From: Candidatus Nitrosacidococcus sp. I8
Lineage (GTDB): Bacteria > Pseudomonadota > Gammaproteobacteria > Nitrosococcales > Nitrosococcaceae
DNA length: 64,000 bases
Direction: 5' to 3'
NCBI RefSeq assembly: GCF_945836005.1
Contig: NZ_OX241534.1
Location: 558,001-622,000, forward strand
Positions 2,485 through 15,762 of the stretch are shown here, piece after piece. Under the pieces are notes generated by a model that had not been told where the DNA came from, did not search any database, and saw only the letters and a program-made list of their open reading frames with translations. Position numbers and translations under genes: made by a program. Position 1 is the stretch's first letter; each line of letters starts with the position of its first letter.

Positions 2485-3558
2485 TTATATAAATTTAATC
2501 TTTTTTACAGCCATAATAAATTGTTGCATATCTTGAGTAGTAATTGCACCCATAGTAGCTACTCTAAAAATTTTAGTATTTAACTTCCCTTGGCCTGCGT
2601 AAATAATAAATCCACGTTTTTTTAATTGATCATGTAAGGCTTCGTAAGCAAGAGTTTCTGGAAGATAGTAGGAACGTAGTACACAGGAAGAATCTTTACG
2701 AGAAAGCAGGGGTTTAATACCCAGTTGCTTAAATTCTTGTTCTACAAGATTACCTAGTTGCCGATAGTGGTTTTTTCTAGCACGCCAACCACCTAAGTCC
2801 ATAAATTCCTGTAAAGCTTCAAGGAGTACATAAAAAGACTGCACTGCAGGAGTAAAGGGTGTGCCTCGCTGATCTTGCTCCTGACAATAGGAGGCTAAAT
2901 CTAAATAAAGACTTCGCTTTGGAGGAACTTCAGGAAAGCTATCTCGTTGTACTATGACAAAGGCAGCACCTGGGGCACCATGGAGGCATTTATTTGCTGT
3001 AGCAGCAAGTCCACTAATTCCCCAATGATCAAAAGAGAGTAATTCAGCACCAAAGCTGCTTACTCCATCAACTAGAAGCTGAACTCCTTTTTGTTGGCAA
3101 ATTCTACCAATTATTTCTAAGGAATTGAGTCGTCCAGTGGTGGTTTCATGATGAATAACTGCTATATGGGTAATTTTAGAATCTTTTTTTAGGGTTTGTT
3201 CTAACTGATCAAAATTAATTTCTTCTCCCCAGCTATGAGGTAGTGTAGTATGTTTTATTTTATGAATTTGAGCAATTTTAGTAATACGCTCACCATAAAT
3301 TCCATTTTCAATAATTAATAATTTTCCTTGGATAGGAATAAGGCTACTAATCATTGCCTCTATTGCAGCAGTGCCTGAACCACTTAGTAATACCGCTGCC
3401 CATTTTTCAGGATTAAGCTTATAGGCTGCTAGTAACTGTTTTTTGATTTCATCTTGAAGATCAAAAAATTCTGATTCTCGATGGCATAAATCGGGGCCTA
3501 AAAAAGCTTCTCTTACTCGATGACTTAAATTAACAGGACCTGGATTAAGTAAAATCAT
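2485..3558 (-). CDS. 2-aminoethylphosphonate aminotransferase (class V, PLP)
   Basis: This 357-residue class V (fold type I) aminotransferase opens with LNPGPVNLS, typical of the AEP transaminase group. The PLP aspartate is D164 (LLVDGVSSFG) and the Schiff-base lysine is probably K190 (ATANKCLHGAPG). In a PEP mutase operon it should run in the biosynthetic direction: phosphonoacetaldehyde plus an amino donor to 2-aminoethylphosphonate. The gene follows the phosphonopyruvate decarboxylase gene by 1 bp, so the two are almost certainly cotranscribed. No phosphonatase or C-P lyase gene is present, which argues against catabolism. The amino donor cannot be read from sequence. Confidence 0.85.
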   Translation of the reverse strand: MILLNPGPVNLSHRVREAFLGPDLCHRESEFFDLQDEIKKQLLAAYKLNPEKWAAVLLSGSGTAAIEAMISSLIPIQGKLLIIENGIYGERITKIAQIHKIKHTTLPHSWGEEINFDQLEQTLKKDSKITHIAVIHHETTTGRLNSLEIIGRICQQKGVQLLVDGVSSFGAELLSFDHWGISGLAATANKCLHGAPGAAFVIVQRDSFPEVPPKRSLYLDLASYCQEQDQRGTPFTPAVQSFYVLLEALQEFMDLGGWRARKNHYRQLGNLVEQEFKQLGIKPLLSRKDSSCVLRSYYLPETLAYEALHDQLKKRGFIIYAGQGKLNTKIFRVATMGAITTQDMQQFIMAVKKIKFI

Positions 3559-3559
3559 A

Positions 3560-4708
3560 TTATTTACATTTTGAAATGTAGGTCATTAATCGCCTAGCAG
3601 TTTCCTCTGGACTGAGTTTAGGACGAGGAAGATGATCTACTGTACCAGAGTGTATTTTAATTTGAGCAAACTTAGGACCTTTAGTTGTCTTATGGGCAAA
3701 TATTTGATCCAATAGGGTAAAATCATTCCCTGATAATGCCATTTCATAACCGCAACTACTCGCTATATTAGCAAAGGAAAAATTGCCTGATACAGTTGCT
3801 TGAGATCCAGTAGAATCATGTACTTCATTGTCTAATAGTATATGGGTAAAGTTCGGTTGCCCATAGGTACCTACGGTCGCAAAGTTTCCCATCCGCATTA
3901 GGGCAGCACCATCTCCATCAATCACAATAACTTGTAAGTCTGGACGAGTAAGGGAAATACCCAGCCCTAGAGAAGAGGCGCAGCCCATGGAACCTACCAT
4001 ATATAGTTGATTTTCCCTGTCTTCTAGAGCAAATAATTCACGCCCAGTATAGCCCGTGGTGGCAATCACTACGCTGTTTTCTTTAGGTATTTGGCTATGA
4101 AGATAGCTAAGTACTTCACTTCGGGAATGAATTGGAACAGTTGAATGAAAATTTAGTGGCTTTTCTTTACTCAATATTCGATGAGGAATACCACCACTTG
4201 CACCATAAGAAGCAATAGAATCTTTGCGTACTACTAAAGCATAGGGACGTTTTTGCTCTTTTATATAGTGGGTAGCACGTTCAAGTGCAGGTTGTATTTG
4301 TGCAGTTTCTTGAGGAAAATACTCCCAAGGAATTTCCATTGATTCTAATAAAGAACCCGTAATTCGCCCCATTAACTCATGTTGAGGCTCATCCTTAAGA
4401 TCAGGATCCCCTCTTAGGGTCACAATTAATAAAATGGGAATACGAAATGTATGGTTAAGAGAAGTCAGTGGATTAATTGCATTGCCTAGACCAGAGTTTT
4501 GCATCATTGCTACTGCAGGTTGCCCACCTAAATAAGCCCCTGTTGCTATGGCAACCGCATCTCCCTCATTTGCTGCAGAAACATAGTTTATATCATCTCG
4601 AGCAATCACATGATTAATAAAGGGCGTTAAGAACGAGCAGGGTACTCCAGCATAGGAATGGTAGCCAAATTTTTGTGCCTGATCGATAAATTCATGTGTT
4701 TCTATCAT
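3560..4708 (-). CDS. aepY: Phosphonopyruvate decarboxylase
   Basis: A thiamine diphosphate enzyme of 382 residues, the usual length for the Ppd/Fom2 family. It decarboxylates phosphonopyruvate to phosphonoacetaldehyde, the step that pulls the unfavourable PEP mutase reaction forward. The N-terminal pyrimidine-binding half carries the conserved TPP glutamate (ANEGD, about E48). The C-terminal half carries the metal/diphosphate motif starting GDGAALMRMGN at residue 265. It sits between the PEP mutase gene (19 bp upstream) and the AEP transaminase gene (1 bp downstream), so the three steps from PEP to AEP lie in pathway order. Confidence 0.92.
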   Translation of the reverse strand: MIETHEFIDQAQKFGYHSYAGVPCSFLTPFINHVIARDDINYVSAANEGDAVAIATGAYLGGQPAVAMMQNSGLGNAINPLTSLNHTFRIPILLIVTLRGDPDLKDEPQHELMGRITGSLLESMEIPWEYFPQETAQIQPALERATHYIKEQKRPYALVVRKDSIASYGASGGIPHRILSKEKPLNFHSTVPIHSRSEVLSYLHSQIPKENSVVIATTGYTGRELFALEDRENQLYMVGSMGCASSLGLGISLTRPDLQVIVIDGDGAALMRMGNFATVGTYGQPNFTHILLDNEVHDSTGSQATVSGNFSFANIASSCGYEMALSGNDFTLLDQIFAHKTTKGPKFAQIKIHSGTVDHLPRPKLSPEETARRLMTYISKCK

Positions 4709-4727
4709 GGAAATACGCTTCCTTTAA

Positions 4728-6389
4728 TTATTGATAACCATGGGCAAAATCTCCAGCTCGTGTTAAATCCTCAATATTATTGATATCTAACCAATGCCCA
4801 TTAATATATAACACTCGAATAGGATAACCTCTATCGATTAAGTTATTTAATAAATCTGGAATAGTGAGCTGCAAAAAATCTTCCTGCTTTGCTAGATTAT
4901 GAAGTGTGCTTAATATCCAATTTCGTCCTTCACCTACTACCCGTATCATTCCAACCCAATATCCATTGGGTTGCTTGATACTCTCTTTATTATTCTGGTA
5001 AGTTTCAATTCTAGTTAAATTCACTTCTTGGCTAAATAAAGATCTATCATCTGGTTTTGAACAAAATGCAATATCTTTAACGTGATCTTTTTGCGGACTA
5101 GGAAACATAGAATCTACTACGGTAATAATTTCCCCGGACATATGGGATAAATCCCGCAGAATATAGCTACGAAAGAGTAAATCTCCATAAGTAATTATAG
5201 TGTCGCTAGAAAGGGACTTAAGTGCGCAGTGAAGAGAGTAGAGCTCATTACTATAAGCATAGGTATCATTGTGTACTAAAGAAATTCCTTTTACAGTAAT
5301 AGATTCTGGTTTGTAACCAGTCACTACAGTAATGTTATTGATCTGCTGATGCTTGAATTTATCTACTAAACGCCGTAATAAAGGAATGCCTGCAATAGGT
5401 AGCATAACCTTGGGATATTCACTAGTAACTGTCTCTAGCCCTTCTCCTTGACTAGCAGCGAGTACAATTGCATTGATTTCACCAGATGGCTTACAATAGC
5501 GTTTTTCAGCAGTAAGTAGCTCATCAGCACCTTGTAAATGGAAAATTTCACTTACCGAAGCAATCTGATCTTCTATATTAACTAAAGTTTCGGTTTTGTG
5601 AATTTCCTTAGCTATTTTTGTCATAGAAGCAGCCGCTGCTCTAATAAGGTGGTTAGCCCAAATAACAATACTGATATTTGCAGTACGAAATACTTCTGTT
5701 GGTGTGCTGTAATATTTGGTAGGTACAATAATTAAGGGGGCTCGATTAGCCCATTCTTTAGTAAATGCTAAAATTTCATCTGCTTGAGAAAGTTTGCTAT
5801 GAATTAAAATACCATCAGCTCCTGCTTGATGATAGGTTTCTGCACGATGTAATGCTTCACTTAACCCCCAACCAGCAATCAGAGCTTCTACCCGTGCAAT
5901 AATAGAAAAATCTGGATGACGCTGTGAATCCTTACCTGCTTTAATTTTTCCACAAAATTCATCGATATCAGCTAAAGGCTGTTTTTCTCCCTCAATAAAG
6001 CTATTAGTCTTAGGGAAAACCTTATCCTCAATACATACGCCAGCGATTTCTCTCTGCTCTAGTTTTTTTACTAATCGCCGTAAATTATTAAAATTCCCAT
6101 AGCCTGTATCCCCATCTAGTAGAATGGGAATTTGAGTGGTATCAGACATGAACTCTAGTATATCTACTACTTGAGTCCAACTTGCTTCATTATTATCCCT
6201 AACCCCAAACTGGGCAGAAAGAGCAAGCCCACTTGCCCAAATTCCTTTGAATCCAACTTCTTCTACAATGCGTGCACTTAACCCATTATGAGCTTCTAAT
6301 AAAAATTCTGTTTGATGAGAATTTAATAAAGATCTTAACTGAGTAAACTTTGAAACTTGGGAGACTTGAAGAGATAGTGGAATATCCAT
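4728..6389 (-). CDS. aepX: Phosphoenolpyruvate mutase fused to a nucleotidyltransferase domain
   Basis: Two domains in 553 residues. Residues 1 to about 290 form an isocitrate lyase-like barrel with LDGDTGYG at 91-98 and the PEP mutase signature [10 protein letters not shown] at 121-130 (EDKx5NS separates mutases from lyases). It makes the C-P bond: PEP to phosphonopyruvate. Residues from about 305 to 553 form a sugar-nucleotide-type nucleotidyltransferase domain with AASQGEG at 311-317, a following PKVMLPI, and [10 protein letters not shown] near the end. The loop differs from the usual AAGxGxR. The fusion suggests the phosphonate product is activated with a nucleotide (for example CMP-AEP) for transfer to a lipid or glycan. 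The stop is 8 bp... upstream neighbour (a second nucleotidyltransferase) ends 8 bp before this start. Confidence 0.92.
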
Positions 6390-6397
6390 AAAACTTT

Positions 6398-7159
6398 TTA
6401 ACTAGCTTTTGGCGTAGATTGGATAAGCGGAAGGATAATTTGTTGTGCTCGAATAATGTCTTCTGGAAAATCAATCTCTATCCATGGTAACCCTGTAATA
6501 TCCTCAATACCAAAACGCTGGAGATTAGCTAACAATACATCTCTTATCGCCTCTTCATAAGGCAGATCATAATATTGGTGATCTATGTAATATTGGCAGC
6601 GATCTGCTAATTGTGAAGCCATTTCTGCTGAAAAACGAAAAAAACCTACGGATTCACCGATGAGATCATAGGAAATATTTTTTGAAATATTTTTCCTAAA
6701 TTCTATAGGAATTCCATGATGAAGGCATAACTTCACTGGTTCTTCATCATTAATATCAACCCGGCGATCTAACAAAAAGCAATTATCATGGGGCGATTGT
6801 AATAATTGCTGGCAGATTTGATAATCGTAAAGTACATCTGCATCCATCAGAAGAATATCTTCTTTTAAGCGAAGATATTCCCTAAGTGTCCATAGAGTGA
6901 CTACACTACCTTGATTAAAATAAGGATTATATTCAATATTAAATTGAATACGGGAAGAATAATTACCTAGTACTTTCCTAATTTTATCAGCTTGATACCC
7001 TAAGCCAAAAGTAATTTTTTGAATACCTAGATATTCAAGAATAGATAAGTGCCGCTCAAGTAAACTAGCTGATTCACAGATTTTTAACAAACATTTAGGC
7101 TGCTCAATACAACCTGCAAGCCGTTTACCCTGACCGGCTGCTAAAATAATAGCGTGCAC
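6398..7159 (-). CDS. Nucleotidyltransferase, phosphonate/phosphocholine cytidylyltransferase-like
   Basis: A stand-alone 253-residue nucleotidyltransferase. The nucleotide loop AAGQGKR is at 7-13 with PKCLLKI after it. Further on are [13 protein letters not shown], the metal-binding [10 protein letters not shown], and near the end [12 protein letters not shown]. This layout resembles LicC and PntC-type enzymes that couple CTP to phosphocholine or 2-aminoethylphosphonate. Given the PEP mutase operon around it, the likely product is an activated phosphonate headgroup such as CMP-AEP. The PEP mutase gene already carries a related domain, so the operon has two such activities. Substrate and nucleotide are inferred from context only. 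Confidence 0.75.
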
Positions 7160-7179
7160 TATCTAAAAGGCAGCACTGA

Positions 7180-7950
7180 TTAAACTGCTAAAAGGGCAGG
7201 ACCTATACAAGCAACTACTGTTCTTAGGGTAGTACGTGCTGCATGGAAATGGGTTGCAAGCTGCCATAGTTTTAGAATGTCTTTAGGACACTTCAATAGA
7301 TTTGCTAATAAAGCAAGTTTACGGATATTGCCCTCCATATTTACCGTACTTAATATAGAGTTAGGTAGAGCCATATGCGCAGGATCAACTACCGAACGGA
7401 TGACTAAAAATGGAATACCTGCTTTAGCTGCAACACTAGCAATAGGGGCACTTTCCATATCTGTAGCCACACATTGAGTTTGATGATAGATAAGGTTCTT
7501 TGTCTCAGGGCAGCCAAGAGTAATTTCTGTATGGTGGAGTGCATCGATAGAAAAGGTTAGCCGAGAATCTAAGCGATTAATAATGCGCTGTCGCCATTCA
7601 TGATCCGTGTGGTAAATCTCATCTTCAGTGACTCGTATTTGTTTAGGTAGTAACAAGGTGCCAGATTTTATATGAGGTGCCAAACCTCCTGCAACTCCCC
7701 AGCTGATTAGAGCTTTAGCACCTGCTGCTACGAAAGATTCAGCAGCTAACTGAGCACGTTCAGATCCCATACCAGAAAGCTGTAAATATAAGGACTCAGA
7801 TAAGTGAATACTTTCTTTAGGATAAAGATTCTTTTTAGTAAGGCAACGCCCTTCCGAAGGAAGGGCAGCAATAATTCCCGTATCAATAGGAGCAATAGCT
7901 AATATCTCAGCTTCTATTGGATCATGAGTTAAATCAGAAGCAACTAGCAT
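7180..7950 (-). CDS. hpnG: Hopanoid-associated phosphorylase HpnG
   Basis: A 256-residue nucleoside phosphorylase-family protein. Visible family features are the nucleotide-recognition stretch CVATDMESAPIA, a glycine-rich GVAGGL segment, and VIRSVVDPA. In hopanoid producers HpnG removes adenine from adenosylhopane in building the C35 side chain. Here its start overlaps the squalene-hopene cyclase stop by 7 bp, which ties it to hopanoids rather than to general purine or MTA salvage. HpnH (the radical SAM enzyme making adenosylhopane) is not in this window. Confidence 0.85.
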   Translation of the reverse strand: MLVASDLTHDPIEAEILAIAPIDTGIIAALPSEGRCLTKKNLYPKESIHLSESLYLQLSGMGSERAQLAAESFVAAGAKALISWGVAGGLAPHIKSGTLLLPKQIRVTEDEIYHTDHEWRQRIINRLDSRLTFSIDALHHTEITLGCPETKNLIYHQTQCVATDMESAPIASVAAKAGIPFLVIRSVVDPAHMALPNSILSTVNMEGNIRKLALLANLLKCPKDILKLWQLATHFHAARTTLRTVVACIGPALLAV

Positions 7951-9875
7951 AGATTATTAATATAATTGCGGTATTTTGCTAAAGCCCAAAGTGGGAAAAA
8001 TTTATCATAGCCGTGATACCTAAGGTAGAAAACCCGAGGAAATCCTGGTGCATTAAATGCTAAGTGATTCCAAGAGTTTTTATCTTGGTTAGTAAGTAAA
8101 TATTCAACACCTCGTTTTACTGTAGTACTATTTCCTTCTCCTACAGCAATTAACCCAAGTAGCGCCCAAGCGGTGTGGATAGGGGTGCTTTCCTTATATG
8201 TTCCTGCAATAAACGAGTCATAGTAAGAATAATTATCCTCACCCCAACCTCCATCTGGACGTTGAACTTCTTGAAGCCAATGAACTGCTTTGCGAATAAA
8301 TTCTTCTTTTGGATCGATTCCTACTTGTTCTAAAGCAGTGAGTACTGACCAAGTCCCATAAATGTAATTGGTTCCCCACCGCCCAAACCAGGATCCACTA
8401 GGTTCTTGTTCATTACGTATATAAGAGAGGGCGTGTTTTAATGATTCTGAATCTTCAGATCGTTTCAGCCGCCCCATTAAAGCCACACACCGAGCAGTAA
8501 CATCTACGGTAGGGGGATCAAGTAAGGCACCATGGTCTGCAAAGGGAATTTCATTTAAATAATAATGCATATTATTAGTTTCAAATGAGGCAAATCCGCC
8601 ATTTCTTGATTGCATTCCCCGTAGCCAATCGCAAGCAAGGGTAATTGACTCTCCGTATCGATCAGAATTATTAGCCTGATCCATCGCCCAAGCAACTACT
8701 GAAGTATCATCTAAGTCCGGATAATAAGCATTATTATATTGAAAAGCCCAACCACCACTCTTAAGATTTGGGTGTATTTCCTGCCAATCTGCTGGGTGAT
8801 CTAAAATCTGTTTTCTTTTTAGCCAATCAAGGGCATGAATTACTTGGTTTGTAGTTCTTCCATTTTCTACCTCTTGAAGTGCTAAAGCAGCTAATCCCGT
8901 ATCCCAAACAGGTGATACACAAGGCTGGCAATAAGCTGATTCGCCATGATCTACAACTAAATTTTGGATTGATTTTTTAGCAATTACCCTGATTGGGTGA
9001 TCTAGAGGGTAATCTAATAATATTAAGGACTCATGGGCATTAACCATTGCTGGGAAAATAGCCCCTAATCCATCAATACCATTGATTCGTTCAACAACCC
9101 AGGTTTCTGCTTTCTTAAGGGCTTTTTTCCGTATAAATGATGGAATAATCGGCTCTATCAGCCGAACCGCACGCTCTACATAAAGTAGTATTTTATTTGC
9201 CCGAGATCGTGCTGGAAAATAATTACGCTCCTTTTCAGGAGGTACGGTAAAGAGCTCTTGAATATCCACCTTATTAGGATTTTTTGCTTCAGCTTTTAAG
9301 CTATAGAGGATAGCTAAAGGCACCATTACAGTTCTTGACCAATAGGCCACTTTCGTTAAGTGGAAAGGAAACCAGCGAGGGAAAAGCATAATTTCCACAG
9401 GCACAAGAGGGACTGCTCGCCAAGGAATTTGCTTAAACATAGCTAAAGTAAGACGAGTAAATGCATTAGATCGTGCTGCTCCTCCATAGGCTAAAATAGC
9501 TTCCCTAGCTCGCACCATATGAGGTGCGTTGATATCATCGCCTACTAGTTTAAGAGCAAAATATACTTTTACTGAACAACTAATATCTAACTTACCATCA
9601 TAAAATAAGGGCCAACCACCATGATCAGCTTGTTTTTCACGCAAATAAACTGCTAATTTACGCCCTAACTCTGGTTCTAGATCGCCAGTAAAGTGGGTCC
9701 AAATAATATATTCAGCAGGGATAGTACAATCTGCTTCTAGCTCAAAACACCAGTGACCATCTTTATGTTGCTGTCTTAATAAGTAATCTCTAGCACGAGA
9801 TATGGCACTATCTAATTTATGATTAGATTGCATTTCGGTGGGTTCTATAATAGTTTTTTCAATCGCATGAGCCAT
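7944..9875 (-). CDS. shc: Squalene-hopene cyclase
   Basis: A 643-residue terpene cyclase of the usual bacterial length. It cyclises squalene to hopene/hopanol at the cytoplasmic membrane. The catalytic DxDD motif is DLDD at 387-390. QW-type repeats (for example GHWCFELEAD, GGWPLFYDG, GGWAFQYN, GSWFGRWG, GGWGEDNYS, NSWNHLAF) are spread along the chain. It follows the squalene synthase gene by 35 bp and overlaps hpnG by 7 bp, giving a compact squalene-to-hopanoid unit. The start ATG at 9875 has weak upstream ribosome-binding sequence. Confidence 0.97.
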   Translation of the reverse strand: MAHAIEKTIIEPTEMQSNHKLDSAISRARDYLLRQQHKDGHWCFELEADCTIPAEYIIWTHFTGDLEPELGRKLAVYLREKQADHGGWPLFYDGKLDISCSVKVYFALKLVGDDINAPHMVRAREAILAYGGAARSNAFTRLTLAMFKQIPWRAVPLVPVEIMLFPRWFPFHLTKVAYWSRTVMVPLAILYSLKAEAKNPNKVDIQELFTVPPEKERNYFPARSRANKILLYVERAVRLIEPIIPSFIRKKALKKAETWVVERINGIDGLGAIFPAMVNAHESLILLDYPLDHPIRVIAKKSIQNLVVDHGESAYCQPCVSPVWDTGLAALALQEVENGRTTNQVIHALDWLKRKQILDHPADWQEIHPNLKSGGWAFQYNNAYYPDLDDTSVVAWAMDQANNSDRYGESITLACDWLRGMQSRNGGFASFETNNMHYYLNEIPFADHGALLDPPTVDVTARCVALMGRLKRSEDSESLKHALSYIRNEQEPSGSWFGRWGTNYIYGTWSVLTALEQVGIDPKEEFIRKAVHWLQEVQRPDGGWGEDNYSYYDSFIAGTYKESTPIHTAWALLGLIAVGEGNSTTVKRGVEYLLTNQDKNSWNHLAFNAPGFPRVFYLRYHGYDKFFPLWALAKYRNYINNLC

Positions 9876-9910
9876 GATGGTTCAATCCTTATCCGTTTAA
9901 TTCCTTAAAT

Positions 9911-10963
9911 TTATTTACCGTAACTAATTTGAGGGGTTTTTAAAGGGGAAAGAGGTATACCCTTGGCAGCAAGGCTAAATAAAAATTTCAGTACTCTATC
10001 ATGATTTGCCGCAAGGTTGGTCAAAAAAATAGTTATCTTTACACTACGGCGTGAAATTTTAACCTGATTTCCACTAGAAAAATCCTGATGATGATGTAAT
10101 TTACGTAAAGTTAAAATGGCAAACCCAATTGCCCAAAGGCAAAAACGGCGAATACCTACTTCTTTAGACGGAATAAGCAAGGTATAAGCTAGAGCATTTT
10201 GCAAATGGGTATGAGCAATGCTAATCAAATACTGAAATCCCTCTCCAAAAGTGGAGGAGTACTGATTAGGTGTTAAATCTTCTAGATTAAAATGTGCTTT
10301 TTCAAATACACTACGAGGTAACCAACATACGCCTCGTTCCCTATCATCCCAAATATCCTTAAGGATATTGGTCATCTGTAAGCCTTGCCCAAAAGAGAGG
10401 GTAAGTTTACGTAATCCATCGCAGTTTTCGTGAACTTCTGGAGAATAGTCACAAAATAACTCTGTGAGCATTTCACCTACCACACCAGCAACGAAATAAC
10501 AGTACTTATCCATTGCTATCATGTCCTCTAATCCTTTTAAGCTGGCTGATCTTTGAAATCTAGGCATTCCATCGCACATAATACGAACACACCGCTCTAG
10601 AGCAGCACGCTGAGGAGGCGTAAAACTATGGGTTACTCGAATAACTCGAGAGGTGTTCAGAATGAGCTCCCGTTCAGCGGGAAGCATTTGATCGGATAAA
10701 AGAGGATAGAGATCTTTAGCAAAAGATTGAGCAGATTTATCTCCCTTGACTACTTGAGTAAATGCTTTAGAGAATATATTTTTTTGATCTAAGCTCAGGG
10801 TAGGTTCATCTTCAATAGTATCTGCAATCCGGCATAATAAATAACCATTTGCGACGACTTCTCTTAGTTTATCAGGTAGCTGGGGAATTGTAAGTGCAAA
10901 GGTGCGGGAAACATCCACAAGCATTTTATCTTGATACACTTTGTCTTCAATAACAGCATCCAT
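9911..10963 (-). CDS. Squalene synthase (farnesyl-diphosphate farnesyltransferase type)
   Basis: A 350-residue all-helical trans-isoprenyl diphosphate synthase. The two metal/diphosphate motifs are DTIED at 48-52 and DIWDD at 203-207. YCYFVAGVVGEM lies between them, as in eukaryotic-type squalene synthases. It condenses two farnesyl diphosphates and reduces presqualene diphosphate to squalene. Many bacteria use the three-gene HpnCDE route instead; no hpnC or hpnE partner is seen here. It is the first gene of the hopanoid-phosphonate run, and the promoter should lie in 10964-11212. Assignment as HpnD (presqualene synthase) is less likely because of the motif context and length. Confidence 0.85.
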   Translation of the reverse strand: MDAVIEDKVYQDKMLVDVSRTFALTIPQLPDKLREVVANGYLLCRIADTIEDEPTLSLDQKNIFSKAFTQVVKGDKSAQSFAKDLYPLLSDQMLPAERELILNTSRVIRVTHSFTPPQRAALERCVRIMCDGMPRFQRSASLKGLEDMIAMDKYCYFVAGVVGEMLTELFCDYSPEVHENCDGLRKLTLSFGQGLQMTNILKDIWDDRERGVCWLPRSVFEKAHFNLEDLTPNQYSSTFGEGFQYLISIAHTHLQNALAYTLLIPSKEVGIRRFCLWAIGFAILTLRKLHHHQDFSSGNQVKISRRSVKITIFLTNLAANHDRVLKFLFSLAAKGIPLSPLKTPQISYGK

Positions 10964-11112
10964 AATCTCTAACTTTTAAAATTTAAAACAATAAGAACAA
11001 TGCAGATTATAATCTTGTATATAATTGCAGCTTATTCTACATGAAGCATCATAAATGAAATACATATTTTTATGCCTATTTTATAGAAAATACTTTATAA
11101 ATCCATTATAAA

Positions 11113-11143
11113 AATAGTAGTAGTATTCTACTATTAAAGGAGG
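11113..11143 (+). promoter_or_regulatory. Hairpin followed by an orphan Shine-Dalgarno sequence
   Basis: An 8-bp perfect inverted repeat, AATAGTAG (11113-11120) and CTACTATT (11128-11135), has a 7-nt loop. It is followed at once by AAAGGAGG (11136-11143), a near-perfect Shine-Dalgarno. No ATG, GTG or TTG lies at a workable distance, and the next gene starts 70 nt further on after a second small stem (GGATTT/AAATCC). Together this looks like a structured leader for the lipoprotein gene at 11213. A regulatory role is a guess. Confidence 0.3.
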
Positions 11144-11212
11144 TTTTAAAAGTAAATTCATAATAATTTAATAGGATTTAAATAAAAATCCATCTTTTTT
11201 AAAATAATTATT

Positions 11213-11851
11213 ATGCTTTTTTTGCTACTCTTCATTATGCTAATAGCATTTAATGGCTGTATCACCACAGTACAAGGATCTCTTCCTAAACGAACAGCTA
11301 CAGAAGAACTACTTATTTCTACTGCGGTGGATCATAGCGTAGTAGAGTTAAATTTTGATATCCCATCGGGGGCAAAAGTTTGGTTTGATACCAGCATGCT
11401 ACCTGGTATTAGAAATCAAGATCAAGATATTTTATATGCTATTAGTGCCATTAAAGCACAGTTACTTAAACAAGGTGGACAGCTAATTACAGACCAAAAA
11501 GAAGCTGATTTGATCATGGAAGCAAGGATAGGGGCACTTTCTATTGATAAAATTGAGAGGTTGATAGGTATCCCTAGTTTTTCCGTTCCGGTACCTTTAG
11601 CAGGTACCTTTAAAACCCCAGAAATAGCATTTTACAAAAAATCAGATATGCGTGGCATTGCTAAGCTAGCTTTTTTTATTTATGGTGCCAAGAATGGTAA
11701 ATTACAAAATTTTTCAGTTCCTGTTCATGGAGATTCTTACTATATTCATGTGCATACACCAGTGAGTAATTGGTTTAGGGATGATTTTGTTCCTGAAAAA
11801 AATTGGTTTGAAACTGATTTCTCTCTTAGAAATAAAAGAACTAGAAATTAA
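11213..11851 (+). CDS. Putative lipoprotein of unknown function
   Basis: 212 residues starting with a hydrophobic signal segment that ends in NGC (cysteine about residue 16), a weak lipobox because the -3 residue is F. The mature part is a mixed alpha/beta domain with a hydrophobic IPSFSVPVPLAGTFKTPE stretch and no catalytic motif I recognise. It may belong to the DUF6655-like group, but that is from memory. The ATG at 11213 has no good ribosome-binding site directly upstream; the strong AAAGGAGG is 70 nt away. The gene is divergent from the squalene synthase gene and convergent with glcD. Probably envelope-located. Confidence 0.6.
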   Translation: MLFLLLFIMLIAFNGCITTVQGSLPKRTATEELLISTAVDHSVVELNFDIPSGAKVWFDTSMLPGIRNQDQDILYAISAIKAQLLKQGGQLITDQKEADLIMEARIGALSIDKIERLIGIPSFSVPVPLAGTFKTPEIAFYKKSDMRGIAKLAFFIYGAKNGKLQNFSVPVHGDSYYIHVHTPVSNWFRDDFVPEKNWFETDFSLRNKRTRN

Positions 11852-11885: not shown

Positions 11886-13370
11886 TCAAAACCGCTCCAG
11901 ATCAGGAAAAGCAAAATTATTGTGATGTACATGGGTTGCACCAAATTCAGCACAACGATGCAGTGTTGGAATTCCTTTTCCAGGATTAAGTAAATTATTA
12001 GGATCAAAAGCCGATTTTATTTCATGGAATTGTTGAAGCTCTTCAGTACTAAATTGAATACACATTTGATTAATTTTCTCAATCCCTACTCCATGTTCAC
12101 CGGTAATTGCGCCGCCAACGGTAACACAAAGCTCTAAAATCTCAGCCCCTAGTTGTTCTGCTCGCTCTAGTTCTCCGGGCTTACTTCCATCGTAAAGAAT
12201 CAAAGGGTGTAAATTACCATCTCCGGCATGAAATACATTAGCGATAGGTAATTTAAACTCCTCTGAAAGCTTATTAATTTGTATTAATACTTCGGCAAGT
12301 TTTTTGCGTGGAATAGTCCCATCCATACAGTAATAATCCGGAGAGATACGACCTACTGCAGGAAAAGCTGCTTTACGCCCTTTCCATAGCTTTAACTGTT
12401 CTTGTTTATTTTCTGCAATACGTATCTCTGCAGCACCTGAAGCAGATAATAAGCTTTTCACTTGCTCAAATTGATAGCTAACTTCGGTAGCATTTCCATC
12501 TAGCTCACATAGTAAAATTGCTGCAACATTTCTAGGGTAGCCTACTTGAACAAAATTTTCTGCCGCTTGAATTGCTAGCTGATCCATCATTTCTAATCCA
12601 GCAGGAATAATTCCCGCACTTAAAATAGTGCTGACTGCCTTACTTGCCTCTTCTACTGTATTAAAAGCAGCGAGTAATAATTGAGTTTGTTCAGGAATAG
12701 GGAGTAATTTTACGGTGATCTCAATAATTATTCCAAGCAACCCTTCTGATCCTGTCATCAGTGATATTAAATCATAACCAGGATAATCTAGGGTAGTGCT
12801 CCCTAAAGAAATAAGTTCACCAGTAATGGTGAGGATTTTTAGTGCTAGGACATTATGAACTGTTAATCCATATTTCAAACAGTGTACTCCACCAGAATTT
12901 TCTGCAACATTACCCCCAATAGTACAAGCGATCTGAGAGGATGGATCAGGTGCGTAATAAAGTCTATGAGGTGCTGCTGCTTCGGAAATAGCAAGGTTAC
13001 GTACCCCAGGCTGTACCCGAGCTGTTCTGTTGAGAGGATCAATGGCTAAAATGCGATTAAACTTAGCAAGGCTAATCAGTACCCCATTGCTTAGAGGTAA
13101 AGCTCCTCCAGAGAGTCCCGTTCCTGCCCCTCGAGGCACAATAGGAATATTATTTACGTTGCAAATCTGAAGAAGTTTTTGAATTTGAGCAATCGTTTCT
13201 GGCAGAACTACTAACCAAGGGAGGATTTGATAGGCAGAAAGCCCATCACATTCATAAGGAGATAGGTCTTCCTCTTTGTATAGAATTCCATTTTTAGGTA
13301 AAAAAGCACTCAGCTCTTTAATAAGTTCTTTCTTATTAAAAGAGTGGTTGGGGATTTTCGAAGTAAACAA
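11886..13370 (-). CDS. glcD: FAD-linked glycolate oxidase subunit GlcD
   Basis: A 494-residue FAD-binding oxidase (PCMH fold, with a C-terminal cap). PRGAGTGLSGGA at 79-90 is the FAD diphosphate loop. The C-terminus holds GEHGVGIEKI and FDPNNLLNPGK, typical of GlcD. It oxidises glycolate (or D-lactate) to the keto acid. GlcE and GlcF are not adjacent, so partners must lie elsewhere or the enzyme works alone. The start appears to be TTG at 13370, with AGG upstream and no ATG nearby. It is divergent from the glycerate kinase gene with 40 bp between starts, which supports a joint C2-salvage role. Confidence 0.88.
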   Translation of the reverse strand: MFTSKIPNHSFNKKELIKELSAFLPKNGILYKEEDLSPYECDGLSAYQILPWLVVLPETIAQIQKLLQICNVNNIPIVPRGAGTGLSGGALPLSNGVLISLAKFNRILAIDPLNRTARVQPGVRNLAISEAAAPHRLYYAPDPSSQIACTIGGNVAENSGGVHCLKYGLTVHNVLALKILTITGELISLGSTTLDYPGYDLISLMTGSEGLLGIIIEITVKLLPIPEQTQLLLAAFNTVEEASKAVSTILSAGIIPAGLEMMDQLAIQAAENFVQVGYPRNVAAILLCELDGNATEVSYQFEQVKSLLSASGAAEIRIAENKQEQLKLWKGRKAAFPAVGRISPDYYCMDGTIPRKKLAEVLIQINKLSEEFKLPIANVFHAGDGNLHPLILYDGSKPGELERAEQLGAEILELCVTVGGAITGEHGVGIEKINQMCIQFSTEELQQFHEIKSAFDPNNLLNPGKGIPTLHRCAEFGATHVHHNNFAFPDLERF

Positions 13371-13410
13371 TCTTTAACCTTTAAATAAAATAAATTCTAT
13401 ACTGTACTCT

Positions 13411-14523
13411 ATGATAGAGGAACTAAGAAATACGCATATAATAAATGCGCTTCAGAAATTAGCAGAAGGAAGAGATATTTTCTCTTATTGCTCTGAGGGA
13501 ATTTGCTCTACTCTAGTAGATTTAGAGTTAGATACCTACGCTTTGTGGGGAAAAAATTCAGATAAATCAAATAAGATTATTTACCACAGCATACAAGAGA
13601 AAATTAGATTACTACATTTAAACAGTGCTATCTCAGCAAAGCATGATCAATTACAAATACCACCACTAGAAACCCTATGGCAGGTCCACTTACCTATAGC
13701 CATGTGGATCATAGAGCAACAAGAAAGGCTAGGGAAAAATCCTTTAGTATTAGGGCTAAGTGGTGCTCAAGGATCGGGGAAATCCACCTTGAGTAGGTTT
13801 TTGGAAGTTATTTTGACTACTTATTTTCATCAAAAAGTAGCTACTTTATCACTGGATGATTTTTATCTTTCTCATGGTAAGAGACAGCAGTTAGCTAAAA
13901 AAGTGCATCCTTTGTTTGTGACTCGGGGCGTACCCGGCACTCATGATACAATACTCGCAATAAAGACACTAGAATCCTTAAAATCAGCAAATCAGGACTC
14001 AATTACCCAATTTCCTAAATTTGATAAAGGATTAGATAATAGACTGCCTGACGCAGAAGGTATTATTTTTCAAGGGCGACCTGATATTATAATTTTTGAA
14101 GGATGGTGTGTAGGTACTCATCCAGAATCTGATCAGCAACTTATCGTCCCTATTAACCAGTTAGAGATTGAAGAAGATAAGGATAGTGCATGGCGACACT
14201 ATATAAACCAAGTATTGCATCATGATTATGCTAAATTATTTTCCTTATTAGATAGGTTAATTTTTATAAAAATCCCTTCTTTTCAAACTGTATGTAAGCA
14301 GCGATTGGAACAAGAACAGAGTCTCGCTCACTCAAATCAGCAAAGATATCTGAATAAACGTACCTCAGAAATAAAAATAATGGACAAAGTAGCAATCAAG
14401 AGATTTATTGCTCATTTTCAAAGAATAACTGAATATATGTTAAGAGAAGTACCTTCTTATGCTGATATGGTATTAGAGATTAATGATCGGAGAGTATTTT
14501 TAAAAATACAGGCTAAAAATTAG
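13411..14523 (+). CDS. D-glycerate 3-kinase (plant/cyanobacterial GLYK type)
   Basis: 370 residues of the P-loop kinase (uridine kinase/PRK-like) superfamily. The Walker A is GAQGSGKST at 118-126. SLDDFYLSHGKR, RGVPGTHD, FPKFDKGLDNR and IIIFEGWCVG follow in the order seen in plant photorespiratory glycerate kinases. It should convert D-glycerate to 3-phosphoglycerate, the last step of 2-phosphoglycolate salvage. The N-terminal 100 residues are a family-specific helical extension. The neighbours glcD (divergent) and serine-glyoxylate aminotransferase (57 bp downstream) act in the same route, so the call rests on both motifs and context. Confidence 0.88.
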   Translation: MIEELRNTHIINALQKLAEGRDIFSYCSEGICSTLVDLELDTYALWGKNSDKSNKIIYHSIQEKIRLLHLNSAISAKHDQLQIPPLETLWQVHLPIAMWIIEQQERLGKNPLVLGLSGAQGSGKSTLSRFLEVILTTYFHQKVATLSLDDFYLSHGKRQQLAKKVHPLFVTRGVPGTHDTILAIKTLESLKSANQDSITQFPKFDKGLDNRLPDAEGIIFQGRPDIIIFEGWCVGTHPESDQQLIVPINQLEIEEDKDSAWRHYINQVLHHDYAKLFSLLDRLIFIKIPSFQTVCKQRLEQEQSLAHSNQQRYLNKRTSEIKIMDKVAIKRFIAHFQRITEYMLREVPSYADMVLEINDRRVFLKIQAKN

Positions 14524-14580
14524 CGATATTTATATTATAGATATACTTAGTAATACTATTCTTCCTTTAGGAGCCTATTC

Positions 14581-15762
14581 ATGCCTATTTCTTCTTTTCA
14601 CCCCCCTACTCGAATTTTATTGGGCCCAGGTCCATCTGATGTAAATCCTCGAATTTTAGAGGCTATGTCTCGCCCCACCATTGGTCATTTAGATCCGCTT
14701 TTTGTTGCCATGATGGATGAGATGAAATCTCTACTGCAATATACTTTTCAAACTCAAAATGAGCTCACTTTTTCTGTCTCTGCTCCTGGGAGTGCAGGGA
14801 TGGAAACTTGTTTTGTTAACTTATTAGAACCGGGAGATAAAGCCATCGTTTGCCAGAATGGTGTGTTTGGTGGTCGGATGAAAGAAAATGTAGAACGATG
14901 TGGTGCTATCCCAGTTATGATACAAGATACTTGGGGAAAACCTGTAGATCCAAATAAGCTTGAAGAAACCCTTAAAGCGCACCCAGATACGAAAGTGGTT
15001 GCGTTTGTCCATGCAGAAACCTCTACAGGTGCTCAGTCAGATGCAAAAACCTTAGTAGAAATTGCTCACCGCTATGGTTGTCTTACTATTGTAGATACAG
15101 TTACTTCCTTAGGAGGCAGCCCGGTAAAAGTAGATGAGTGGAAAATTGATGCCATTTATTCAGGTAGCCAAAAATGCCTTTCCTGCACCCCTGGGCTTTC
15201 TCCAGTAAGTTTTAGTTCACGGGCAGTAGAAAAAATTAAAACTCGAAAAACAAAAACCCAGAGTTGGTTTTTAGATTTAGGGTTAGTCAGTAGTTACTGG
15301 GGTGGAGCAGGAAAACGAGCCTATCATCATACAGCACCTATTAATGCTCTTTACGGATTGCATGAATCTCTAGTTATTTTACAAGAAGAAGGGATTGAGG
15401 AATCTTGGGCAAGGCATAATCGTAATCATCAAATACTCAAAGCGGGTATTGAAGCTATGGGATTATCCTTTATTGTTGATAAACCTTATCGCCTTCCTCA
15501 GCTCAATGCAATTAAAATTCCTGAAGGTATTGATGATGCAAAAGTACGCACCCAATTATTGCAGCAATACGGCATAGAAATAGGGGCTGGGCTAGGGGAT
15601 ATGGCAGGTAAAATATGGCGTGTTGGTTTAATGGGTCACAGTGCTAACTTACGTAATGTCTTAATTTTCCTAGGGGCCTTAGAGAAGATTTTAAGCGATT
15701 TAGGTGCCAAAATTGAAGTAGGTGCAGCAACTAAAGCCGCTTCTTTAAAAGCAGCAGCATAG
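14581..15762 (+). CDS. Serine-glyoxylate aminotransferase (class V)
   Basis: 393 residues with the family opening LLGPGPSDVNPRILEAMS, PLP aspartate D172 (TIVDTVTSLGG) and Schiff-base lysine K198 (SGSQKCL). These match the alanine/serine-glyoxylate aminotransferase group. It transfers an amino group to glyoxylate, giving glycine, with serine going to hydroxypyruvate. A good AGGAG lies just upstream of ATG 14581. Placement after glycerate kinase and near glcD points to photorespiratory-type or serine-cycle use. No hydroxypyruvate reductase or serine hydroxymethyltransferase is present here. The C-terminus is alanine-rich. Confidence 0.88.
   Translation: MPISSFHPPTRILLGPGPSDVNPRILEAMSRPTIGHLDPLFVAMMDEMKSLLQYTFQTQNELTFSVSAPGSAGMETCFVNLLEPGDKAIVCQNGVFGGRMKENVERCGAIPVMIQDTWGKPVDPNKLEETLKAHPDTKVVAFVHAETSTGAQSDAKTLVEIAHRYGCLTIVDTVTSLGGSPVKVDEWKIDAIYSGSQKCLSCTPGLSPVSFSSRAVEKIKTRKTKTQSWFLDLGLVSSYWGGAGKRAYHHTAPINALYGLHESLVILQEEGIEESWARHNRNHQILKAGIEAMGLSFIVDKPYRLPQLNAIKIPEGIDDAKVRTQLLQQYGIEIGAGLGDMAGKIWRVGLMGHSANLRNVLIFLGALEKILSDLGAKIEVGAATKAASLKAAA

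Follow-up and report, generated by a model that had tools for sequence, protein, structure and literature searches.

Hopanoids are sterol-like membrane lipids of bacteria, and their C35 side chain is made by HpnH and HpnG. Phosphoenolpyruvate (PEP) mutase, a decarboxylase and an aminotransferase make 2-aminoethylphosphonate (AEP). Genes of both kinds form a single run, sqs-shc-hpnG-ntp-aepX-aepY-aepZ, on the minus strand of Candidatus Nitrosacidococcus sp. I8 (genome label G000, one contig of 1,848,551 bases). The run was read from the open reading frame (ORF) listing of the window analysed here, a stretch of 64,000 nucleotides corresponding to positions 558001-622000 of the genome. With the bacteriohopanepolyol pathway (shc, hpnH, hpnG, hpnIJK, hpnO, hpnN), as set out in the accessible part of PMC12583986, the run shares sqs, shc and hpnG, and the genome shares hpnH, hpnM and hpnN homologues and hpnIJKL elsewhere; a phosphonate head group is not described in that part of the source. 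The same 2025 study of alphaproteobacterial hopanoids, again in its accessible part, gives the functions of hpnA, hpnB and hpnL as unknown and found no further obvious candidates near hpn clusters (PMC12583986). The AEP enzymes, together with a cytidylyltransferase carrying the PntC catalytic residues, are shared with the Pnt phosphonyl-tailoring pathway (Ppm, Ppd, AEPT, PntC; PMC6697681). Among the Ppm proteins known so far, roughly one in three is a fusion of PEP mutase with a nucleoside triphosphate (NTP) transferase domain (PMC6697681), and AepX is likewise fused. In contrast to the Pnt pathway, a canonical standalone PntC-like enzyme stands here beside a fused domain without its arginine, the genes are joined to hopanoid genes, and the candidate transferase is of the cytidine diphosphate (CDP)-alcohol type; PMC6697681 mentions neither hopanoids nor CDP-alcohol enzymes.

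Two published cases come closer. In some Roseomonas, a hopene cyclase is linked to PEP mutase, and a survey of Acetobacteraceae guessed at a 'terpene-phosphonate' (PMC8776678, accessible in part). Common to both is the proximity of shc to PEP mutase, which the survey took for a hybrid cluster; by comparison of descriptions, the Roseomonas case differs in belonging to Alphaproteobacteria and, in the accessible part of that account, in the lack of a transferase proposal. The second case is a cluster of lichen Nostoc and Burkholderia, called phosphonolipid synthesis (PMC5987646, Fig. 7), in which the AEP module (NTP transferase, pepM, ppd, AEPT) is accompanied by a CDP-alcohol phosphatidyltransferase, a 2-oxoglutarate (2OG)-Fe(II) oxygenase and hpnL. 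In the I8 genome, by comparison, hpnL and the transferase lie elsewhere and sqs-shc-hpnG is joined directly to ntp-aepXYZ. With these two cases in print, the linkage can be called new only in part, and the statement of the initial annotation that it knew of no description of both halves as one unit has to be qualified. A search for hopanoid together with aminophosphonate found no report, with most subscription papers beyond its reach; within this limit the breadth, a hopanoid-restricted AepX clade and the assignment of the family's transferase appear new. In this study, we tentatively interpret the run as part of a conserved pathway that joins hopanoid and phosphonate synthesis and may end in a phosphono-hopanoid, a reading to which we give somewhat less than an even chance.

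The seven genes are packed as tightly as first described, with gaps of at most 35 bp and a single overlap of 7 bp on one strand; from sqs to aepZ the intergenic distances are 35, -7, 20, 8, 19 and 1 bp. The gene for a probable squalene synthase of the SQS/PSY family (9911-10963) opens the run. It scores 176.5 bits against Pfam SQS_PSY (cut-off 26) and 118.8 bits, below the cut-off of 286.75, against NCBIfam squal_synth, and is 71-73% identical to the gene in the same position of four sister-genus genomes. The squalene-hopene cyclase gene shc follows (7944-9875; TIGR01507, 790.7 bits, cut-off 431.1) and overlaps by 7 bp with hpnG, encoding the hopanoid-associated phosphorylase (7180-7950; TIGR03468, 193.2 bits, cut-off 187.1). 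The standalone nucleotidyltransferase gene ntp (6398-7159) has a GTG start, and its product finds its best Protein Data Bank match in 6pd1, PntC of Treponema denticola (E 1.5e-8). The product of aepX (4728-6389; TIGR02320, 398.4 bits, cut-off 319.6) is a PEP mutase with the motif EDKXXXXXNS and a C-terminal NTP_transf_3 domain (Pfam, residues 307-415). The phosphonopyruvate decarboxylase gene aepY (3560-4708; TIGR03297, 458.3 bits, cut-off 312.5) and the AEP aminotransferase gene aepZ (2485-3558; TIGR03301, 416.3 bits, cut-off 360.8) complete the run. A promoter or terminator between hpnG and ntp, named at the outset as evidence against a common unit, was searched for at 7159-7180, and neither a terminator-like nor a promoter-like match was found in the 20-bp gap. 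Over the whole run, promoter-like matches (26, with 30.3 expected from shuffles) and terminator-like matches (11, with 6.6 expected, sd 3.0) are close to the shuffle expectation. The arrangement suggests joint transcription of the seven genes.

Conservation of the adjacency was examined in six genomes of the family, belonging to three genera. All four sister-genus genomes have the identical seven-gene order, and in each of them the same aminopeptidase-like gene comes next. The genome of the third genus (G062) carries sqs-shc-hpnG and an orphan aepY; ntp, aepX and aepZ are missing from this position. Since the same aminopeptidase-like gene follows in all genomes, loss of the AEP block in G062 appears the simpler reading. 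The orphan phosphonopyruvate decarboxylase gene (L035:11466-12620, contig 1, approximately 1425465-1426619; 456.8 bits) may be either a remnant or in other use, for instance on sulfopyruvate.

Beyond the family, a survey of hopanoid/aepX adjacency, proposed in the initial annotation, was carried out on an even sample of the class (321 genomes; aepX threshold E<=1e-60). There are 24 genomes with aepX, 45 with shc and 19 with both (Fisher p=3.4e-14, relatedness within families uncorrected); shc is present in 19 of the 24 genomes with aepX compared with 26 of the 297 without. Co-occurrence of aepX with hpnH is equally pronounced (p=1.1e-14, likewise uncorrected). Twenty genomes have aepX together with a hopanoid gene; in nine of them, from seven families, shc or hpnH lies within 10 kb of aepX, as against an expectation of about 0.3 (12-kb limit, 3-Mb genome), and the observed number is lowered by contig breaks in metagenome-assembled genomes (MAGs).

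Marker genes were sought by tblastn around the best 80 AepX relatives from named genomes. A Nevskiaceae MAG (L141) holds the most complete single run, sqs-shc-hpnG-hpnN-transferase-hpnA-2OG oxygenase-HpnL-ntp-aepX-aepY-aepZ. In seven gammaproteobacterial MAGs (L117, L093, L121, L079, L091, L102, L155) aepXY(Z) adjoins dxs, hpnH and an HpnB-like gene, with hpnM in most of these loci and hpnG or shc in several. In Pandoraea and Mycetohabitans the AEP module adjoins dxs, hpnN, hpnM, ispH and hpnH, and in cyanobacteria aepZ lies 0.3-5 kb from hpnA/hpnH in 6 of 16 loci. The membrane-protein gene of the AEP module is HpnL (TIGR03476, 318 bits, cut-off 195.7, for the Mycetohabitans copy); it stands inside the module in 28 of 53 Burkholderiaceae loci. 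Paraburkholderia loci including L081, L085, L090 and L097 have aepXYZ alone, with no ntp, transferase or HpnL in the flank; these genomes have shc.

A quick tree of 82 AepX rows, many picked by similarity to the AepX of the window and some on long branches outside the clade, contains a clade of 69 rows (SH-aLRT 99) from gammaproteobacteria, Burkholderiaceae and cyanobacteria. The source genome of every one of these 69 rows has shc (for Mycetohabitans, within the locus), and so have all 44 genomes reached through AepX loci; the cyanobacterial genomes were reached in this way and not by a class-wide sample. Outside the clade, 10 of 13 rows come from genomes without shc, and in the loci of these ten this ntp and the transferase are missing or weakly matched. 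Co-occurrence, adjacency in several families and the hopanoid-restricted AepX clade strongly support the original proposal that the hopanoid and AEP halves belong together.

Two nucleotidyltransferase activities had been assigned to the run. The standalone Ntp bears out this assignment with a full catalytic signature: R13, K22 and K156 align with R15, K25 and K153 of PntC and are invariant among 85 sequences. Exchange of these PntC residues to alanine leaves <10% activity (PMC6697681). The fused domain of AepX does not fit the assignment so well, as the arginine of its GXGxR motif has given way to other residues, for the most part G, E, D or A (126 sequences), with the PK lysine kept in 126/126. 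Since the standalone protein keeps the PntC residues and the fused domain is without the arginine, the former is the likelier CTP:AEP cytidylyltransferase of PntC type. The fused-domain arginine is also replaced in the Paraburkholderia loci that have no standalone ntp in the flank.

A transferase for the last step had not been seen, which is correct for the window; elsewhere in the genome a matching enzyme is encoded. A search for CDP-alcohol phosphotransferases in the genomes of the family yielded a candidate (L054; G000:C1:1616484-1617095) 1 Mb from the run, with sister-genus counterparts L059, L062, L063 and L064. All five genomes that have the AEP block encode a member of this group, and G062 does not, a distribution which, with a single absence, supports and does not prove the assignment. 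PgsA-like and PssA-like groups were rejected as last-step transferases, since they also occur in G062, which is without the AEP block. Members of the candidate group are 38-56% identical to the Mycetohabitans enzyme whose gene stands immediately ahead of 2OG-oxygenase, HpnL, ntp and aepXYZ. The candidate holds the full motif D-x2-D-G-x2-A-R-x8-G-x3-D-x3-D (DHVDGELARISGKQSNFGHFYDLTVD). Its AlphaFold model (mean predicted local distance difference test score, pLDDT, 93; plasmid sequences left out of the alignment) is matched in Foldseek by AF2299, IPCT-DIPPS and phosphatidylinositol phosphate (PIP) synthases, and the profile of the group matches CEPT1, the eukaryotic choline/ethanolamine phosphotransferase. 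CEPT1 uses CDP-choline or CDP-ethanolamine and diacylglycerol as substrates. No relative of the candidate was found in viral contigs. In L093 (8532-9173), L121 (7766-8392) and L168 (11074-11691) a second CDP-alcohol phosphotransferase-like gene without the exact motif lies beside AEP genes, on top of the canonical copy.

From these elements the following pathway can be proposed. Sqs and Shc would provide C30 hopene, to which HpnH would add an adenosyl group; HpnG would then remove adenine to leave a ribosyl or polyol side chain. HpnH is encoded about 120 kb from the run (G000:C1:683965-684921; 556 bits, cut-off 225), and hpnM and hpnN homologues and hpnIJKL are likewise located outside the run (models identify hpnI and hpnL; the two intervening genes were assigned from their position and by eye). 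On the phosphonate side, AepX, AepY and AepZ would convert PEP to AEP, the standalone Ntp would presumably activate it to cytidine monophosphate (CMP)-AEP, and the CDP-alcohol phosphotransferase may move AEP from CMP-AEP to a membrane lipid alcohol. The likeliest acceptor is the hydroxyl at the end of a hopanoid polyol, for example bacteriohopanetetrol (BHT), and the product would then be a zwitterionic phosphono-hopanoid. The preference for a hopanoid polyol comes from the restriction of the AepX clade to hopanoid producers and from the interleaving with hpn genes. The two products first envisaged, a membrane phosphonolipid made in addition to hopanoids and a hopanoid with phosphonate on its side chain, are still the main candidates; the data lean towards the second without deciding the matter. 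Extended to a widespread class of phosphono-hopanoids in gammaproteobacteria, betaproteobacteria and cyanobacteria, made via a dedicated transferase and possibly served by HpnL, HpnA or HpnB, the proposal is advanced with slightly more hesitation.

Several observations weigh against a phosphono-hopanoid, and some of them favour a different lipid. The AEP arm could make diacylglycerol-AEP, a glycerophosphonolipid that corresponds to phosphatidylethanolamine with a C-P bond, via the same CDP-alcohol phosphotransferase; its genes would be kept with hopanoid genes as both lipids cooperate in the outer membrane, like sterols and sphingolipids. We consider this possible, at appreciably less than an even chance. 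The transferase profile matches choline/ethanolamine phosphotransferases, which are users of diacylglycerol, and in Burkholderiaceae the AEP module mostly stands apart, with hpn genes within 10 kb in only 1 of 53 loci; because of this resemblance and these unlinked modules, diacylglycerol is a serious rival acceptor. The similar module in lichen Nostoc and Burkholderia was also interpreted as a phosphonolipid cluster (PMC5987646). In the I8 genome the candidate transferase adjoins ubiD and not hpn or aep genes. The genome also holds hpnIJKL, a route to other head groups on BHT, so that AEP would be one head group among several. Surveys of Burkholderia hopanoids are not known to report an AEP-hopanoid, which standard extraction and acetylation may miss. 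A glycerophosphonolipid alone, however, leaves unexplained why the AepX clade is restricted to hopanoid producers (69/69) and why the module is interleaved with hpnN, hpnA, HpnL and hpnH in several families.

It is improbable that AEP decorates a polysaccharide or lipopolysaccharide (LPS), as in phosphonoglycans, with shared regulation of envelope genes accounting for the hopanoid link. For most AEP clusters, tailoring of glycans or lipids at the cell surface has been predicted (PMC6697681), but many of the clusters seen here contain a CDP-alcohol phosphotransferase of membrane-lipid type (in a scan not aimed at LicD-type transferases), and in Mycetohabitans the glycosyltransferase gene next to hpnH encodes HpnB, a hopanoid-associated protein. 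A chance neighbourhood, vertically inherited in one family and of no functional meaning, is very improbable and is largely refuted by the class-wide survey. Gene order within the family could simply be inherited, and hpnH and the transferase do lie elsewhere in the genome; against this, the linkage recurs, with the genes variously ordered, in seven or more families of the class and in betaproteobacteria and cyanobacteria, and aepX and shc co-occur far above chance.

Upstream of the run, an AT-rich intergenic region (10964-11212) separates the sqs start from a divergent gene for a DUF6655 protein (11213-11851) on the opposite strand; a promoter of the seven-gene run in this region is plausible. 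The adjoining stretch (11886-15762) contains an FAD-linked glycolate-oxidase-like gene, a kinase-like gene and a class-V aminotransferase gene, the last with BhcA as best model (221 bits, below cut-off). This stretch looks like glycolate/glyoxylate salvage, with only the aminotransferase scored. At the distant transferase locus, the ubiD-type decarboxylase gene (L157:8149-9612; L158-L161) accompanies the candidate in 5/5 family genomes that have the transferase. The I8 genome also encodes there a tandem pair of small, histidine-containing exported proteins (L157:9824-10129 and 10510-10815, G000:C1), which by eye we take to resemble SmbP of ammonia oxidisers.

For most phosphonate clusters of the cell surface the product has yet to be identified (PMC6697681). 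Now that a conserved cluster is delimited and a specific enzyme is proposed for the final step, phosphonate products and the roles of HpnA, HpnB and HpnL become testable, and Nostoc, Paraburkholderia and Nitrosococcus-type strains are culturable hosts for such tests. If true, a phosphono-hopanoid would be a new class of membrane lipid and would bear on outer-membrane chemistry, hopane biomarkers and the phosphorus cycle.

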